Shown here: in pieces, positions 55 to 6,593 of the stretch
Position numbering within the stretch: position 1 is the first letter of the stretch
How the letters are laid out: each line of letters begins with the position of its first letter
DNA from: Candidatus Rokuibacteriota bacterium
GTDB lineage: Bacteria > Methylomirabilota > Methylomirabilia > Rokubacteriales > JACPHL01
Assembly: GCA_016188625.1 (NCBI GenBank)
Contig: JACPHL010000179.1
Location: 1 to 6,593 of the forward strand
Reading direction: 5' to 3'
DNA length: 6,593 bases
Made by a program: the position numbers and the translations under genes
The notes under the pieces: model-generated
Seen by the model: only the letters and a program-made list of their open reading frames with translations
Databases searched by the model: none
What the model was told of the DNA's origin: nothing

Positions 55-759
55 TTAGAGGCCGAGGTAGGCCTCCTTGATGTTGGGATCGCGGAGGAGG
101 TCGCGCGCCGGGCCGGAGGAGACCACGCGGCCGGTCTCCAGGACGTAGGCCTCGTGGGCGATCGCCAGCGCCTGGTGGACGTTCTGCTCGACGAGGAGGA
201 TCGTGACCCCCTCCCGGTTGATCGCCTGGAGCGTCTGGAAGAGCTCGACCACCAGGAGGGGGGCCAGGCCCAGGGAGGGCTCGTCCAGCATCAGGAGCCG
301 GGGGCGCACCATCAGGGCCCGGCCGATGGCGAGCATCTGCTGCTCCCCGCCCGAGAGCGTGCCGGCGAGCTGGCGCCGGCGCTCCTCCAGGCGGGGGAAG
401 AGGTGGAAGACCCACGCCAGGCTCTCGGCCCGCCGGGCGCGCGCCGCGGCCGGGTAGGCGCCGAGCTCCAGGTTCTCGAGGACCGTCATCCCCGGCCAGA
501 GGCGCCGCCCCTCGGGGATGTGGCCGACCCCGAGGGCGACGATCCCGTGGGGCGGCAGGCGGGTCAGCTCGGCGCCGTCGAGCCGGATGCTCCCCGAGCG
601 GGGGCGCAGGATCCCGGAGACGGTCCTGAGCGTGGTCGTCTTCCCGGCCCCGTTCCCGCCGAGGAGGGTGACGATCTGCCCCGCCCTGACACGGAACGAG
701 ACGCCCCAGAGCGCCTGCACGTCCCCGTAGGAGACGTGGAGGTCCCTCACCTCGAGCAT
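55..759 (-). CDS. livF: LivF-type ABC transporter ATP-binding protein
   Basis: This 234-residue cytoplasmic ATPase belongs to the LivF/BraG family, one of the two ATPases that power high-affinity uptake of branched-chain amino acids or related amphipathic substrates. Visible motifs in order: Walker A GGNGAGKT (34-41), PEGRRLWPGMTVLENL (82-97) in the Q-loop region, the ABC signature LSGGEQQ (135-141), Walker B LLMLDE (155-160), and LLVEQN (188-193). The glutamine at 192 replaces the usual switch histidine, which is typical of LivF rather than LivG. Length matches the family, so the gene looks complete. The ATG at 759 is chosen because the protein begins with the usual MLEVRDLHVSYG and a GGGGGAG ribosome site (770-764) sits four bases upstream; the open frame extends further but enters the promoter region. 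No permease, periplasmic protein or LivG gene is adjacent in the window. The family call is secure; the substrate is not, since relatives also serve urea, amides and aromatic acids. Confidence 0.93.
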   Translation of the reverse strand: MLEVRDLHVSYGDVQALWGVSFRVRAGQIVTLLGGNGAGKTTTLRTVSGILRPRSGSIRLDGAELTRLPPHGIVALGVGHIPEGRRLWPGMTVLENLELGAYPAAARARRAESLAWVFHLFPRLEERRRQLAGTLSGGEQQMLAIGRALMVRPRLLMLDEPSLGLAPLLVVELFQTLQAINREGVTILLVEQNVHQALAIAHEAYVLETGRVVSSGPARDLLRDPNIKEAYLGL

Positions 760-921: not shown

Positions 922-1701
922 ATGAAGGTCCTCGTGCTGGTCAAGCAGGTCCCGGATACCGCGACCCAGGTGAAGGTCGGCAGCGATCCGCGCGCCATCG
1001 CCACCACCGGCATCACCTGGATCGTCTCCCCCTACGACGAGTTCGCCGTCGAGGAGGCGCTCCGGATCCGGGAGAAGCGCGGCACGGGGGAGGTGGTCGC
1101 CGTCTCGGGCGGCCCCGAGCGGGTCAAGGAGGCCCTCAGGAGCTGCCTGGCCATGGGGGCCGACCGGGCCGTCCACGTCCTGGACCCCGCCCTCGAGGGC
1201 GCCGACACGCTGACGACGGCGCGGGTGCTGGCCGCGGTGATCCAGCAGGAGGCCCCGCAGCTCGTCCTCACGGGCCGGCAGGCCATCGACGACGACACGG
1301 GCGCGGTCGGGGCCCAGGTCGCCGAGCTGCTGGGGTGGCCCTGCCTCTCCTGGATCATGGAGGAGGCGATCGCCGAGGACGGCGCCACGGTGCGCGCCGG
1401 CCGCCAGGTGGAAGGGGCCCTCGAGCTCTTCGACCTCCCCTTGCCCTGCGTGCTCACGGCCCAGAAGGGGCTCAACGAGCCGCGCTACCCCACCCTCAAG
1501 GGGATCATGGGGGCGAAGAAGAAGGAGATCAAGGAGCTCGGGCCGGGCGACCTCGGGGTCAACGTGGACGGCCCCCAGCTCGAGCTGGTCCGGCTGGAGG
1601 CCCTCCCGCCGCGGCCGCCGGGGCGGATCATCCCCGGCGAGCCCAAGGAGGCGGTCCGGGAGCTGGTCCGGGTCCTCCGCGAAGAGGCCAAGGCGATCTG
1701 A
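922..1701 (+). CDS. etfB: Electron transfer flavoprotein beta subunit
   Basis: The 259-residue EtfB/FixA-family protein forms a heterodimer with EtfA and passes electrons from acyl-CoA dehydrogenases towards ETF:quinone oxidoreductase and the respiratory chain. It starts with the typical MKVLVLVKQVPDT. Further marks are SPYDEFAVEEALR (36-48), CLAMGADRA (75-83), and the nucleotide-binding signature GRQAIDDDTGAVGAQVAELL (118-137). NEPRYPTLKGIMGAKKK (185-201) corresponds to the recognition loop that docks onto dehydrogenases in human ETF-beta. Length is normal. ATG 922 is chosen over an in-frame GTG at 874 because it fits the family N-terminus, and AAGGGGGG (906-913) lies eight bases upstream; the GTG falls inside the leader hairpin. 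It is the first gene of the operon, seven bases before etfA. The adjacent dehydrogenase and the absence of fixC/fixX suggest an ordinary rather than a bifurcating ETF, though the sequence alone does not settle this. Confidence 0.96.
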   Translation: MKVLVLVKQVPDTATQVKVGSDPRAIATTGITWIVSPYDEFAVEEALRIREKRGTGEVVAVSGGPERVKEALRSCLAMGADRAVHVLDPALEGADTLTTARVLAAVIQQEAPQLVLTGRQAIDDDTGAVGAQVAELLGWPCLSWIMEEAIAEDGATVRAGRQVEGALELFDLPLPCVLTAQKGLNEPRYPTLKGIMGAKKKEIKELGPGDLGVNVDGPQLELVRLEALPPRPPGRIIPGEPKEAVRELVRVLREEAKAI

Positions 1702-1708
1702 GGGGGCC

Positions 1709-2701
1709 ATGGCGGGCGCGTTCTGGTGCGTGGTCGAGGACGATCGGCGGGGGCGCCCGAAGAGGGTTACGGCAGAGCTCATCGGGGAGGCCCGGCGTCG
1801 GGCCGGGGAGCTCGGGGCCGGGGTCGAGGCGCTCTGGCTGACCGACCGGGCCGAGGAGGAAGGGCTCGGGCAGCTCGCCGGCTGGGGCGCGGACCGGATC
1901 TGGCTCGTCGAGGGTCCCGCCCTGGCCCCCTACCGCGGCGAGGTCTGGGTCCCGGTCCTGGCCGAGCTGGCGCAGAAGGAGGCGCCGCGGGCGATCTGGG
2001 GGGCCGTGACCAGCCGCCACCGGGAGTTGATGGCCCGCCTGGCGGCGCGGCTCGGGGTCGGGCTCGCGGCCGACTGCGTCGGCTTCGCCCTCGAGGACGG
2101 CCAGCTCGTCGCGGCCCGGCCCGTCTACGCCGGCAAGCTCCTCTCGCGCGTGCGCTGGCGGGGCCAGCCGTGGCTCGCGACCCTCCGCCCCAACGTCTTC
2201 AAGCCCGCGGACGAGGGCCCCGCGCGCGAGCCCCGGGTGGAGCGCCCGGCGGTGAGCGTTCCCCCGGGCGCGGCCACGCTGGTGGAGCGGCGCGAGGAGA
2301 CGCAGACGGGGCTCCCCGAGCTGACCGAGGCCGACATCGTGGTCTCGGGCGGCCGGGGCCTCAAGGGGCCGGAGAACTTCGTGATCCTGGAGGAGCTGGC
2401 CAAGGTCATCGGGGCGGCGGTCGGGGCCTCGCGCGCGGCGGTGGACGCCGGCTGGCGCCCCCACCGCTTCCAGATCGGCCAGACCGGGCGGACGATCTCC
2501 CCCAAGCTCTACATCGGGTGCGGGATCTCGGGGGCGATCCAGCACCTGGCCGGGATGCGGACCTCGAAGGTGATCGTGGCGGTCAACAAGGACCCCGAGG
2601 CGCCGATCTTCAAGGTCGCCGACTACGGGATCGTGGGGGACCTCTTCGAGGTGGTGCCCCTGATGACCGAGGAGTTCAAGCGCGTCCTCCACGGGGAGTA
2701 G
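1709..2701 (+). CDS. etfA: Electron transfer flavoprotein alpha subunit
   Basis: The 330-residue EtfA/FixB-family protein is the FAD-carrying partner of EtfB. The N-terminal alpha/beta domain (about 1-195) is variable. The C-terminal FAD domain is near-canonical: [12 protein letters not shown] (213-224), [10 protein letters not shown] (239-248), QIGQTGR (255-261), [11 protein letters not shown] (272-282), NKDPEAPIF (293-301) and ADYGIVGDL (304-312). Arg242, Thr259 and His279 align with human ETF-alpha Arg249, Thr266 and His286, which contact the flavin. The ATG at 1709 follows etfB by seven bases; GAGG overlapping the etfB stop serves as its ribosome site. It is full length with no sign of damage. 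Immediate linkage to an acyl-CoA dehydrogenase gene suggests the pair is a dedicated acceptor for that enzyme, though an ETF can serve several dehydrogenases. Confidence 0.97.
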
Positions 2702-2706
2702 GCGCG

Positions 2707-3852
2707 ATGCGGATCGAGCTGACCGACGAGCAGCAGATGATCCGGGAGCTGGCGCGGGAGTTCGCCCAGAAGGAGGTGGAGCCCATCGCCGCCCAGCTCG
2801 ACCGCGAGGGGCGCTTCCCCCACGAGACCGTCCGGCGCATGGGAGAGCTCGGGCTCATGGGGATCGCCATCCCCGAGAAATACGGGGGCGGCGGGGCCGA
2901 CACGGTGAGCTACGTCGTGGCGCTCGAGGAAGTGGCCCGCGCCTGCGCCTCCCACGCCGTCATCATGTCGGTCAACAACTCCCTGGTGGCGGACCCGATC
3001 CACCGGTTCGGGAGCGAGGAGCAGAAGGAGCGCTTCCTCGTCCCCCTGGCCTCCGGGCGCGGGCTCGGCTGCTTCGCCCTCACCGAGCCCCAGGCCGGCT
3101 CGGACGCCACGAACCAGGCCACCCTCGCCGTGCGCGACGGCGACCACTACGCCCTCACCGGGCGGAAGCTCTTCGTCACCAACGGCCGCGAGGCCACCGT
3201 GGCCCTGGTCTTCTGCCAGACCGATCGGGATAAGGGGTCCCGCGGGATCTCGGCCTTCCTGGTCGAGAAAGGGACTCCCGGCTTCCTGGTCCCCAAGGTG
3301 GAGGACAAGCTCGGGCTCCGGGCCTCGGACACCGCGGAGTTCGTCTTCGAGGAGTGCCGGGTCCCCGAGGCGAACCGGCTCGGGGAGGAGGGGCTCGGCT
3401 TCAAGGTCGCCATGACGGCCCTGGACGGCGGCCGGATCGGGATCGCCGCCCAGGCCGTGGGGATCGCCCGCGCCGCTTACGAGGCCTCGCTCGCCTACGC
3501 CAGGGAGCGGAAGTCCTTCGGCGTCCCGATCGGCCAGCACCAGATGGTCCAGTGGATGCTCGCCGACATGGCGACCCAGCTCGACGCGGCCCGCCTCCTC
3601 ACCTGGCGGGCCGCCGCGCTGAAGGACCGGGGAGAGCCCTACGGGGTCGCCGCCGCCATGGCCAAGCTCTACGCCTCCGAGATGGCGATGAAGGTCACCA
3701 CGGACGCCATCCAGGTCCACGGCGGCTACGGCTACATCAAGGAGTACCCGGTGGAGCGGTACTTCCGCGACGCCAAGATCACCCAGATCTACGAGGGGAC
3801 CTCGCAGATCCAGAAGCTGGTCATCGCCCGCCAGCTCCTGGATCTCGGGTGA
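2707..3852 (+). CDS. Acyl-CoA dehydrogenase, short/branched-chain type
   Basis: This 381-residue FAD enzyme introduces the alpha-beta double bond into an acyl-CoA and gives its electrons to ETF. The N-terminal helical domain (about 5-118) is followed by the beta domain with [10 protein letters not shown] (124-133), which binds FAD and substrate. The C-terminal helical domain carries [12 protein letters not shown] (268-279), [16 protein letters not shown] (336-351) and IYEGTSQIQ (361-369). Glu363 is the expected catalytic base (equivalent to MCAD Glu376). The alternative base position used by isovaleryl-CoA dehydrogenases is Gly242 (LDGGR), arguing for the short-chain, butyryl or isobutyryl/2-methylbutyryl group. 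The start fits the family N-terminus; GGGGAG (2693-2698), inside the end of etfA, is its ribosome site. Five bases separate it from etfA and thirteen from the mutase gene, so ETF, dehydrogenase and mutase are probably co-produced. Exact chain specificity cannot be read from sequence. Confidence 0.94.
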
Positions 3853-3865
3853 CGGGGGGCGGCCC

Positions 3866-5536
3866 ATGGACGAGCGGGAGCGGATCCGGGAGGGCAAGGC
3901 CCGGTGGGAGGGGGAGACGGTCGCCCCCCACCTGGCCGGGGCGCCCGGGCGGCAGGACCGCTTCGAGACGCAGTCGGGGATCCCCGTCGAGCGCCTCTAC
4001 ACCCCGGCCGACCTCGAGGGGGCCGACTATCTCGCCAAGCTCGGCTTCCCCGGCGAGTTCCCCTTCACCCGCGGGGTCTACCCGACCATGTACCGGGGGC
4101 GGCTCTGGACCATGCGGATGTTCGCGGGGTACGGCCGCCCCGAGGACACCAACCGCCGCTTCCGCTATCTCCTGGAGCAGGGGCAGACCGGGCTCTCGAC
4201 CGCCTTCGACATGCCGGCCCTCATGGGGTACGACGCCGACCACCCGCGGGCCCGGGGCGAGGTGGGGCGGGAGGGGGTCTCTATCTCGACGCTGGAGGAT
4301 ATGGAGCGCCTCTTCGAGGGGATCCGGCTCGACCAGGTCACCACCTCCATGACCATCAACTGCACGGCCTCCATCATCCTGGCCATGTACCTCACGGTGG
4401 CGGAGCGGCAGGGGGTGGCCTGGGATCGGATCGGCGGGACGATGCAGAACGACATGCTGAAGGAGTTCATCGCCCAGAAGGAGTGGATCTGCCCGCCCGA
4501 GCCCGCGGTCCGGATCGTGGTGGACATGATCGAGTTCACCGCCCAGCACGTCCCCCGCTTCAACCCCGTCTCGATCTCGGGCTACCACATCCGCGAGGCC
4601 GGCTCCACCGCGGTCCAGGAGCTGGCCTTCACCCTGGCCGACGGGATCGGCTACGTCGAGGCCTGCCGGAAGCGCGGGCTCGACGTGGACGGCTTCGCCC
4701 CGCGCCTGTCGTTCTTCTTCGATATCCACAACGATTTCTTCGAGGAGGTCGCCAAACTGCGGGCGGCCCGGCGGATCTGGGCGGCCGTGATGCGCGACCG
4801 CTTCGGGGCCCGCCGCCCCGAGTCCCTGCGCCTCCGGACCCACACCCAGACGGCCGGGGTCTCCCTGACCGCCCAGCAGCCGCTGAACAACGTCGCCCGG
4901 GTCGCGCTCCAGGCCCTGGCCGCGGTCCTGGGCGGGGCCCAGTCCCTCCACACCAACTCGATGGACGAGACCTGGGCCCTCCCCACCGAGGAGGCCGTGA
5001 CCGTGGCCCTTCGCACGCAGCAGATCATCGCCGAGGAGACGGGGGCGCCGGCCACCATCGACCCGCTGGGCGGCTCCTACTTCGTCGAGTGGCTGACGGA
5101 CCGGATGGAGGCCGAGGCCCTGGCCTACATCCGCAAGATCGACGAGTTGGGGGGGGTCATCCGGGCCATCGAGCTCGGCTACCCCCAGCAGGAGATCGCC
5201 GACGCCGCCTACCGCTACCAGCTCATGGAGGACCGGGGCGAGCGGGTCATCGTGGGCGTCAACCGCTACGTCCAGGCCGAGGAGAAGCCGATCCCCTACC
5301 TCCGCATCGACGAGGGTCTCGAGCGCGAGCAGGTCGAGCGGGTGCGGCGGGTCAAGGCGCGCCGGGACGCAGCCGGGGTGGAGCGGCACCTCAAGCGGAT
5401 CGCCGAGGCCTGCCGGAACGGCGCGAACCTGATGCCGGTCCTCATCGACGCGGTCAAGGACTACGTGAGCCTCGGGGAGATCTCCGACGTCTATCGCCAG
5501 GCCCTCGGCCGCTACCAGGAGCCGATCATCTTCTAG
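3866..5536 (+). CDS. B12-dependent acyl-CoA mutase large subunit, isobutyryl-CoA-mutase-like
   Basis: This 556-residue protein is the catalytic TIM-barrel subunit of the methylmalonyl-CoA mutase family, which uses adenosylcobalamin radicals to rearrange acyl-CoA carbon skeletons. Family marks: [20 protein letters not shown] (65-84), [12 protein letters not shown] (106-117), TSMTIN (160-165), [11 protein letters not shown] (191-201), [11 protein letters not shown] (236-246), [11 protein letters not shown] (278-288), [16 protein letters not shown] (324-339), [10 protein letters not shown] (360-369) and [11 protein letters not shown] (398-408). With P. freudenreichii numbering in brackets, Tyr72 (75), Arg79 (82), Thr82 (85), Arg84 (87), Gln194 (197), Tyr240/His241 (243/244), Arg280 (283) and Ser282 (285) are kept. 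Phe86 replaces Tyr89 and Gln204 replaces Arg207, the pair reported for isobutyryl-CoA mutase; the segment IAQKEW (202-207) also resembles IcmA. It ends in EPIIF, as stand-alone large subunits do, so the cobalamin-binding domain must come from another gene. GGGGGG lies six bases before the ATG. Family membership is certain; the substrate call is an inference. Confidence 0.9.
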
Positions 5537-5548
5537 GCGGGGACGGCG

Positions 5549-6593
5549 GTGAGGAGACGCGAGCGCTCGCCCGAGGCGCGACAGACGGCCTTCGTCGAGA
5601 TCGTCAAGGAGCTGGCCGCCGAGGATGACCCGGAGCGGCTTTTTGCGCGGATCGGGGAGCGGGTCTGCCAGCTCCTCGGGACCGACAGCGCCTCCCTCTG
5701 CGTGGTGGAGGGGGATGAGCTGGCCGTCCGCGCGGCCTGCGGCCTCGAAGGGCCTCTCCACGGCGCCCCGCGCCGCAAGATCGCCGAGAGCCCGGTCGGC
5801 CGGGTCGTCCTGACCCGGCGCGCCTACGCCACCGCGGACATGACCCGGGACCCGCACTGGCGGGGCTCCGAGGTCGTGACCCGGTGGGGCTACCGCGCCA
5901 TCCTGGAGGTCCCGGTCGTTCTCCGCGGGGAGGTCATCGGGGCGATGGCGGCGCTCGACAAGGCGCCCCGGAAGTTCTCCGGGGAGGACACCGCCCTCCT
6001 GAGCGCGCTGGCCGACCACACGGCGCTGGCCCTGGAGCGGGCGCGGCTGATCGGCGAGACCCAGGCGCAGCGGCAGGAGGCCGAGGTGCTGGCGGAGCTG
6101 GCCAGCACGATCACCGCCTCGCTGGACCTCGACACGGTGCTGGAGCGGGTGGCCAAGGGGGCCAGGGAGCTCTGCGGGAGCGACATGGCAGATCCCGACT
6201 CGGACGCGATGGTGCTCCGCTACCTCGTCGGGACCCGCTACCAACAGTACGACACCTTCCGGATCGAGGCCGGCAAGGGGAGCGGGGGGCTGGTGGTCTC
6301 GACCGGCTGCCCCTTCCGGACGGACGACTACGCCGCGGACCCCAGGATCAGCAAAGACTACCTCGAGGTGGCGCAGGTGGAGGGGATCGTCGCCGAGCTG
6401 GTGGTGCCGATCCAGATCGAGGGCAGAGTGGAGGGCCTGCTCTTTGTCCAGAACCGCGCCCACCGCCCGTTCACCGACCGGGACGAGGCGATCCTCGTCC
6501 GGCTGGCCGACCACGCGGCCATCGCCATCAAGAACGCGCGGCTCTACGGCGAGCTGCGGGCCGCCCTGGAGGCGGTCGAGGCCTCCCAGCAGC
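5549..6593 (+). CDS. Tandem GAF-domain sensory protein (3' end beyond window)
   Basis: An open frame with no stop from GTG 5549 to the window edge encodes at least 348 residues. GAF domain 1 spans about 27-165 (from ERLFARIGERVCQLLG, through DPHWRG at 101-106 and VPVVLRGEVIGAMAALD at 121-137, to LADHTALALERA at 154-165). A charged helical linker (about 162-190) leads to GAF domain 2, about 193-331 (from LDLDTVLERVAKGARELCG, through RTDDYAADPRISKDY at 257-271, to LADHAAIAIKNARLYGEL at 319-336). The frame ends in another coiled-coil-like linker, so an output module such as a histidine kinase, cyclase or phosphatase probably follows; none is visible. GAF domains bind small ligands or haem, or mediate dimers; no cysteine or histidine diagnostic of a chromophore is clear. 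No signal peptide or membrane segment is seen in this part, so it looks cytoplasmic. GTG is chosen because GGGGA (5539-5543) lies five bases upstream and only twelve bases separate it from the mutase stop. GAF2 seems to lack part of its first strand (about residues 212-217). Confidence 0.85.
   Translation, partial: MRRRERSPEARQTAFVEIVKELAAEDDPERLFARIGERVCQLLGTDSASLCVVEGDELAVRAACGLEGPLHGAPRRKIAESPVGRVVLTRRAYATADMTRDPHWRGSEVVTRWGYRAILEVPVVLRGEVIGAMAALDKAPRKFSGEDTALLSALADHTALALERARLIGETQAQRQEAEVLAELASTITASLDLDTVLERVAKGARELCGSDMADPDSDAMVLRYLVGTRYQQYDTFRIEAGKGSGGLVVSTGCPFRTDDYAADPRISKDYLEVAQVEGIVAELVVPIQIEGRVEGLLFVQNRAHRPFTDRDEAILVRLADHAAIAIKNARLYGELRAALEAVEASQQ

Follow-up and report, generated by a model that had tools for sequence, protein, structure and literature searches.

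The window, by which we mean the whole stretch of DNA analysed (6593 bp), is the complete contig C320 of a genome of 2.6 Mb that is 84% complete and stands nearest to Ca. Rokubacteria. Its central feature is a clean single open reading frame on the forward strand, running from an ATG at 3866 to a stop at 5536 (3866..5536), which encodes an acyl-CoA mutase large subunit of 556 residues, putatively of the IcmA type; a search for a cobalamin (B12)-binding domain within these 556 residues found none. Upstream on the same strand are etfB (922..1701) and etfA (1709..2701), for the beta and alpha subunits of an electron-transfer flavoprotein (EtfAB), and a gene for an acyl-CoA dehydrogenase of the short-chain/butyryl-CoA type (384 residues, 2698..3852). 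The start of the dehydrogenase gene overlaps etfA by 4 bp and its end lies 13 bp upstream of the mutase start, and throughout the series etfB-etfA-acd-mutase neighbouring genes either overlap slightly or stand no more than 13 bp apart. The dehydrogenase gave its best structure scores with 5ol2, an acyl-CoA dehydrogenase of the butyryl-CoA type (466 bits), and with the short-chain enzyme 1jqi (445 bits); it is far less like ACAD8, the isobutyryl-CoA dehydrogenase (1rx0, 295 bits), or isovaleryl-CoA dehydrogenase.

The window is completed by a divergent gene for a LivF-type ABC transporter ATPase of the branched-chain amino acid family (55..759, reverse strand), and by a gene for a GAF-domain protein (5549..6593, forward strand) that is cut by the contig end. 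A livF-like gene whose product is 74-76% identical to the window LivF is also found divergently upstream in several relatives. Probes for the GAF-domain protein detected no homologue at the related loci, which have genes for an aminotransferase or a HIT protein in its place; because of this absence, the GAF-domain frame is probably not a core part of the system.

Every rokubacterial locus with sufficient flanking sequence shows the order etfB-etfA-acd-mut. Genes for a HIT protein, a B12 subunit and a second dehydrogenase follow 0.4-2.9 kb downstream of mut in most rokubacterial loci, and in several relatives a branched-chain aminotransferase (over the curated cut-off) is encoded directly after the mutase. 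In the genome under study, a second contig, C227, ends in a block that matches this downstream region and has the order B12 subunit, second acyl-CoA dehydrogenase, enoyl-CoA hydratase, CoA-transferase-like genes, LivG and AMP ligase. The B12 gene of C227 runs to the contig end, so that this copy is cut, and C320 ends as well. Its product shares 75-82% identity with the B12 subunits encoded downstream of orthologous mutases, as compared with 65-67% for the other B12 subunit of the genome (C13). We infer from these matches that C320 and C227 may adjoin, and that the window mutase would pair with the C227 B12 subunit.

Active-site residues and nearest structures

The barrel domain of the mutase matched PF01642 (MM_CoA_mutase) with 736.7 bits, and the protein scored well over the cut-off of TIGR00641, 'methylmalonyl-CoA mutase N-terminal domain'. 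Among solved structures its best match was HcmA, a 2-hydroxyisobutyryl-CoA mutase (HCM; 4r3u, 602 bits, 51% identity), followed by methylmalonyl-CoA mutases (MCM; 461-490 bits) and by IcmF (303 bits). An AlphaFold2 model computed with 24 aligned relatives was of moderate quality (mean pLDDT 73, pTM 0.76; residues 58-85 and 329-400 of low confidence), and a Foldseek search with it returned 4r3u first, with MCMs and IcmF after. Being ligand-free, this model confirms the predicted fold and bears on the fold only.

Structure alignments and a residue map in Propionibacterium shermanii MutB numbering placed Phe86 (codon 4121..4123) at the position of Tyr89 and Gln204 (codon 4475..4477) at that of Arg207, the two residues that grip the carboxylate in MCM. 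The catalytic core is kept: Tyr240 and His241 (codons 4583..4588) correspond to Tyr243 and His244, Arg280 to Arg283 and Ser282 to Ser285. Ser114, Ser164, Thr166, Thr195, Gln197, Asn236, His328 and Gln330 (MutB numbering) are likewise unchanged. Only positions 89 and 207 differ from wild-type MCM among the 25 mapped active-site positions of MutB, Tyr89 being taken from the human and Mycobacterium tuberculosis enzymes since the MutB row of the map is the Y89F mutant 5req. Ala113 (codon 4202..4204) lies opposite the aspartate of HcmA (STAFD as against STDFD). The preliminary description had named each of these specificity and core residues, and its assignments of Phe86, Ala113, Gln204, Tyr240, His241, Arg280 and Ser282 were all correct. 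According to a passage in PMC7238569 that cites Jost et al. 2015, Tyr/Arg at the two specificity sites marks MCM.

The same description had taken the segments around both specificity residues to be IcmA-like. RMFAG recurs in IcmF (RMFAGEG), but at the second site IcmF has QGQNTC, and AQKE is also present in HCM. As AQKE is common to HCM, Gln204 by itself means 'no carboxylate' and is not specific to isobutyryl-CoA mutase.

Comparison with known systems put these residues in perspective. IcmA/IcmB of Streptomyces cinnamonensis resembles the window enzyme in having a large subunit of about 560 residues that lacks a B12 domain, together with a separate small B12 subunit, as we presume for the present case. 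We take Phe80/Gln198 of IcmA to be the counterpart of the Phe/Gln pair. The Streptomyces isobutyryl-CoA mutase is tied to polyketide precursor supply, and its setting differs from that of the window enzyme, whose gene shares an operon with those for EtfBA and a dehydrogenase of the butyryl-CoA type. IcmF of Cupriavidus metallidurans (PDB 4xc6/5cjt) shares Phe, Gln and Ala at the three specificity positions (86, 204 and 113) and the Tyr/His core, but is a single chain that includes B12 and G-protein domains and is 36-37% identical to the window mutase in a structure-based alignment. HcmA, the closest solved protein in sequence and fold, is also a separate large subunit with Gln at the Arg207 site, yet has Ile and Asp in place of Phe86 and Ala113. 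The MCMs (human, M. tuberculosis, P. shermanii) share the fold and the catalytic core; they differ by Tyr89/Arg207, whereas the window chain has neither a B12 domain nor linkage to propionyl-CoA carboxylase (pcc) or epimerase genes and falls across a supported branch of the family tree, as described below.

Phylogeny and gene context of the Phe/Gln mutases

The specificity columns were excluded from both family trees, a quick one of 93 proteins and a careful one of 46. In the careful tree, a branch with support 98/97 put all Tyr/Arg enzymes together (human, M. tuberculosis and P. shermanii MCM, and pcc-linked mutases), with all Phe/Gln enzymes and the Ile/Gln/Asp enzymes (HcmA and the Xanthobacter Py2 plasmid homologue) on the opposite side. 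The preliminary description would have been contradicted by a position inside a clade of proven MCMs; the window mutase lies outside. The trees, which comprise sequences other than S. cinnamonensis IcmA and Syntrophothermus lipocalidus IcmA, show a separation of the window mutase from MCM and HCM, and the window clade in them has no activity-measured member. Streptomyces plasmid mutases that were examined for IcmA proved to be Tyr/Arg enzymes or IcmF only; a Streptomyces MCM is reported to have shown no isobutyryl-CoA mutase activity (PMC7238569).

HCM appears to be derived from among the Phe/Gln enzymes, so that the Phe/Gln set is probably paraphyletic to HCM and substrates within it could vary; forcing the Phe/Gln enzymes (without Haloterrigena) to be monophyletic was not rejected (p-AU 0.20). 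IcmF is placed far out on a long branch in the quick tree, and its Phe/Gln pair may therefore be ancestral or convergent. Two haloarchaeal Phe/Gln mutases (L107, 4989-6689, and L114, from a Haloterrigena turkmenica plasmid) have Leu at the Arg283 site and adjoin HCM in the tree, one of them near haloacid dehalogenase genes.

In a scan of GTDB species genomes, the best 80 loci all carried Phe/Gln/Ala at the specificity sites. By record title they belong to Rokubacteria, Binatota, Myxococcota, deltaproteobacterial sulfate reducers, Chloroflexota, Acidobacteria, Armatimonadota (one) and Bathyarchaeota, so that the Phe/Gln relatives span several phyla and two domains. The combination occurs in 118 of 172 aligned mutases. 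In only five columns are 116 Phe/Gln and 27 Tyr/Arg proteins each fixed, to 85% or more, for different letters, and Phe86 and Gln204 are two of these. Given the uniformity of the best 80 loci and the presence of both residues among the few group-separating columns, the pair is, on these alignments, an old and fixed trait of a large group and not private to the window gene. Of 29 genomes sampled from the same order, 28 have an orthologue of the window mutase (76-81% identity).

Several mutases of other genomes are also notable. One genome of the same order (G018) has fourteen mutase matches, an unusual expansion. Distant paralogues (L184, L185, L186, L180 and L182) combine Leu/Tyr/Ile with Tyr-Tyr (or Tyr-Asp, Tyr-Asn) in place of Tyr-His, and fit no known specificity code. 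The second mutase of the Xanthobacter Py2 plasmid (L115) is highly divergent, with Leu/Asn and Gln-His in the active site.

The neighbourhoods of Phe/Gln and Tyr/Arg mutases also differ. A gene for the beta subunit of an acyl-CoA carboxylase (pccB, at least 50% identity) was found within 4 kb at 0 of 84 Phe/Gln loci and at 12 of 13 Tyr/Arg loci. Conversely, a dehydrogenase gene lay within 4 kb of 31 of the 84 Phe/Gln and 1 of the 13 Tyr/Arg mutases, and EtfAB genes near 14 and 0, respectively; as some loci are short, neighbour absences in all of these counts are lower bounds. The Tyr/Arg loci (the pccB-linked one of the genome under study, the loci that match it best in related genomes, and those of Ilyobacter and Acetoanaerobium) were picked by sequence similarity and not by their neighbours. 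An epimerase-like gene was present near a single Phe/Gln mutase, in an Anaerolineaceae locus (L088).

Other mutases and the propionate and valine genes of the genome

The genome encodes five mutases (on C320, C105, C288, C209 and C26). Besides the Phe/Gln/Ala enzyme of the window, there is a Tyr/Arg/Ala mutase on C105, whose gene adjoins pccB, and an Ile/Gln/Asp mutase of the HCM type on C209 (L015), beside a paaK-like ligase gene as at HCM-type plasmid loci. The genome further encodes a single MeaB (C109) and a single methylmalonyl-CoA epimerase that exceeds the cut-off (C34). With the C105 mutase, pccB, the epimerase and MeaB, the propionate pathway already has its proper mutase.

The remaining copies, and the C209 gene itself, show peculiarities of their own. 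The C288 mutase (L013) is Tyr/Arg/Ala but has Leu for His328 and Gly for Gln330. The C209 gene is frameshifted at about 868-893 into overlapping frames of 366 and 532 residues, which may reflect an assembly error or a pseudogene. The C26 mutase (L014, 332-1987, reverse strand) carries Leu/Thr/Thr as its specificity residues, with Asn for His244, and its gene is next to genes for a ligase and LivF; it and the similar L179 may have an unusual specificity or an altered chemistry.

We also considered the classical route of valine degradation. Methylmalonate-semialdehyde dehydrogenase (MMSDH) over the curated cut-off was found in none of 29 relatives, and once in the genome under study; 3-hydroxyisobutyrate dehydrogenase (HIBADH) was over its cut-off in 26 of 30 genomes. 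With an MMSDH of its own and HIBADH so frequent, the classical route is not cleanly absent. The pattern is faintly suggestive of a diversion of isobutyryl-CoA to n-butyryl-CoA.

Proposed reaction and alternative substrates

The fold, specificity residues, clade and operon, documented above from sequence comparisons, lead us to infer the reaction and its direction. The window gene very probably encodes the large subunit of an adenosylcobalamin-dependent isobutyryl-CoA mutase of the IcmA type. The residues, the tree, the operon and the separate Tyr/Arg mutase beside pccB all support the isobutyryl/butyryl-CoA specificity offered by the preliminary description. The association with EtfBA and a short-chain dehydrogenase, the lack of propionyl-CoA carboxylase and epimerase genes at the locus, and the possession of a Tyr/Arg mutase elsewhere independently favour isobutyryl-CoA and n-butyryl-CoA as substrates.

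The large subunit and a separate small B12 subunit would together interconvert isobutyryl-CoA and n-butyryl-CoA. The 5'-deoxyadenosyl radical would take a hydrogen from the substrate, whose carbonyl-CoA group would then undergo a 1,2 shift, in a pocket lined by Phe86 and Gln204. The likely direction is catabolic: isobutyryl-CoA derived from valine or isobutyrate would be converted by the window mutase to n-butyryl-CoA, which the adjacent short-chain acyl-CoA dehydrogenase with EtfAB would oxidize to crotonyl-CoA, to be hydrated by enoyl-CoA hydratase. A comparable sequence is described for S. lipocalidus TGB-C1, which converts isobutyrate to butyrate before beta-oxidation and has an isobutyryl-CoA mutase cluster (Slip_0757-0760) that reportedly clusters with sulfate-reducer proteins (PMC5017805). 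The two cases, compared by description, share a mutase step ahead of isobutyrate beta-oxidation, and sulfate reducers are also found among the Phe/Gln relatives; they differ in that the S. lipocalidus cluster contains MeaB and an adenosyltransferase, whereas EtfBA and a dehydrogenase accompany the window mutase.

An enzyme of this kind might instead act mainly on another uncharged branched acyl-CoA, such as pivalyl/isovaleryl-CoA or one with a longer branched chain. IcmF, which has the same Phe/Gln pair, acts on pivalyl/isovaleryl-CoA in addition to isobutyryl/n-butyryl-CoA (PMC10481361) and has been solved in complex with pivalyl- and isovaleryl-CoA (PDB 5cjv, 5cjw), so that the window enzyme may have at least a side activity on these substrates. 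A branched product could also be what the second dehydrogenase of the operon acts on. Yet the dehydrogenase coupled to the mutase is nearest to the straight-chain butyryl-CoA type and not to the isovaleryl- or branched-chain enzymes, which fits n-butyryl-CoA as the product, and the conserved Phe86 should hold the pocket small. We consider this alternative unlikely.

Far less probable is that the protein is an MCM despite its substitutions, as automatic annotation has it. The match to TIGR00641 and the presence of the other propionate pathway components speak for this assignment, but the model also matches an HCM homologue, and we reject MCM on residues, tree and context: both carboxylate-binding residues are missing, every Tyr/Arg enzyme lies across the 98/97 branch, the genome has its own Tyr/Arg mutase beside pccB, and the 84 Phe/Gln loci are devoid of a pccB of at least 50% identity within 4 kb. 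A 2-hydroxyisobutyryl-CoA or 3-hydroxybutyryl-CoA mutase would agree with HcmA as the nearest solved relative, with the Gln204 common to HCM and with the position of HCM beside or within the Phe/Gln enzymes; we reject this identity too, as highly improbable, since Phe86 and Ala113 occupy the sites where HCM has Ile (or Val) and Asp, and a separate Ile/Gln/Asp gene stands beside the paaK-like ligase on C209. IcmF is dismissed by the lack of any fusion in the 556 residues and by a score of 371.6 bits with NF045497, for which the cut-off is 1500.

The enzyme type itself is known; what is new is its conserved setting in Rokubacteria, in an operon with Etf and butyryl-CoA dehydrogenase genes, and the breadth of the misnamed Phe/Gln group. 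The warning in the preliminary description that such proteins would be misannotated was borne out, as one and the same NCBIfam 'methylmalonyl-CoA mutase' domain model is assigned not only to a pcc-linked MCM but also to the window protein and to a homologue of HCM. The whole Phe/Gln group carries this name in databases, so that the group may be assigned to propionate metabolism when the metabolism of Rokubacteria, Binatota, Myxococcota, Chloroflexota and Bathyarchaeota is reconstructed. Within a single genome, the residues at window positions 86, 113 and 204 sort the paralogues into MCM, isobutyryl-CoA mutase and HCM types, and their neighbourhoods concur. We tentatively suggest that the breakdown of branched-chain amino acids in this lineage, and in a large part of the wide Phe/Gln clade, might have isobutyryl-CoA mutase as a core step. 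If the proposed function is true, it would provide uncultured soil and groundwater bacteria with a B12-dependent entry of valine and isobutyrate into butyrate oxidation.
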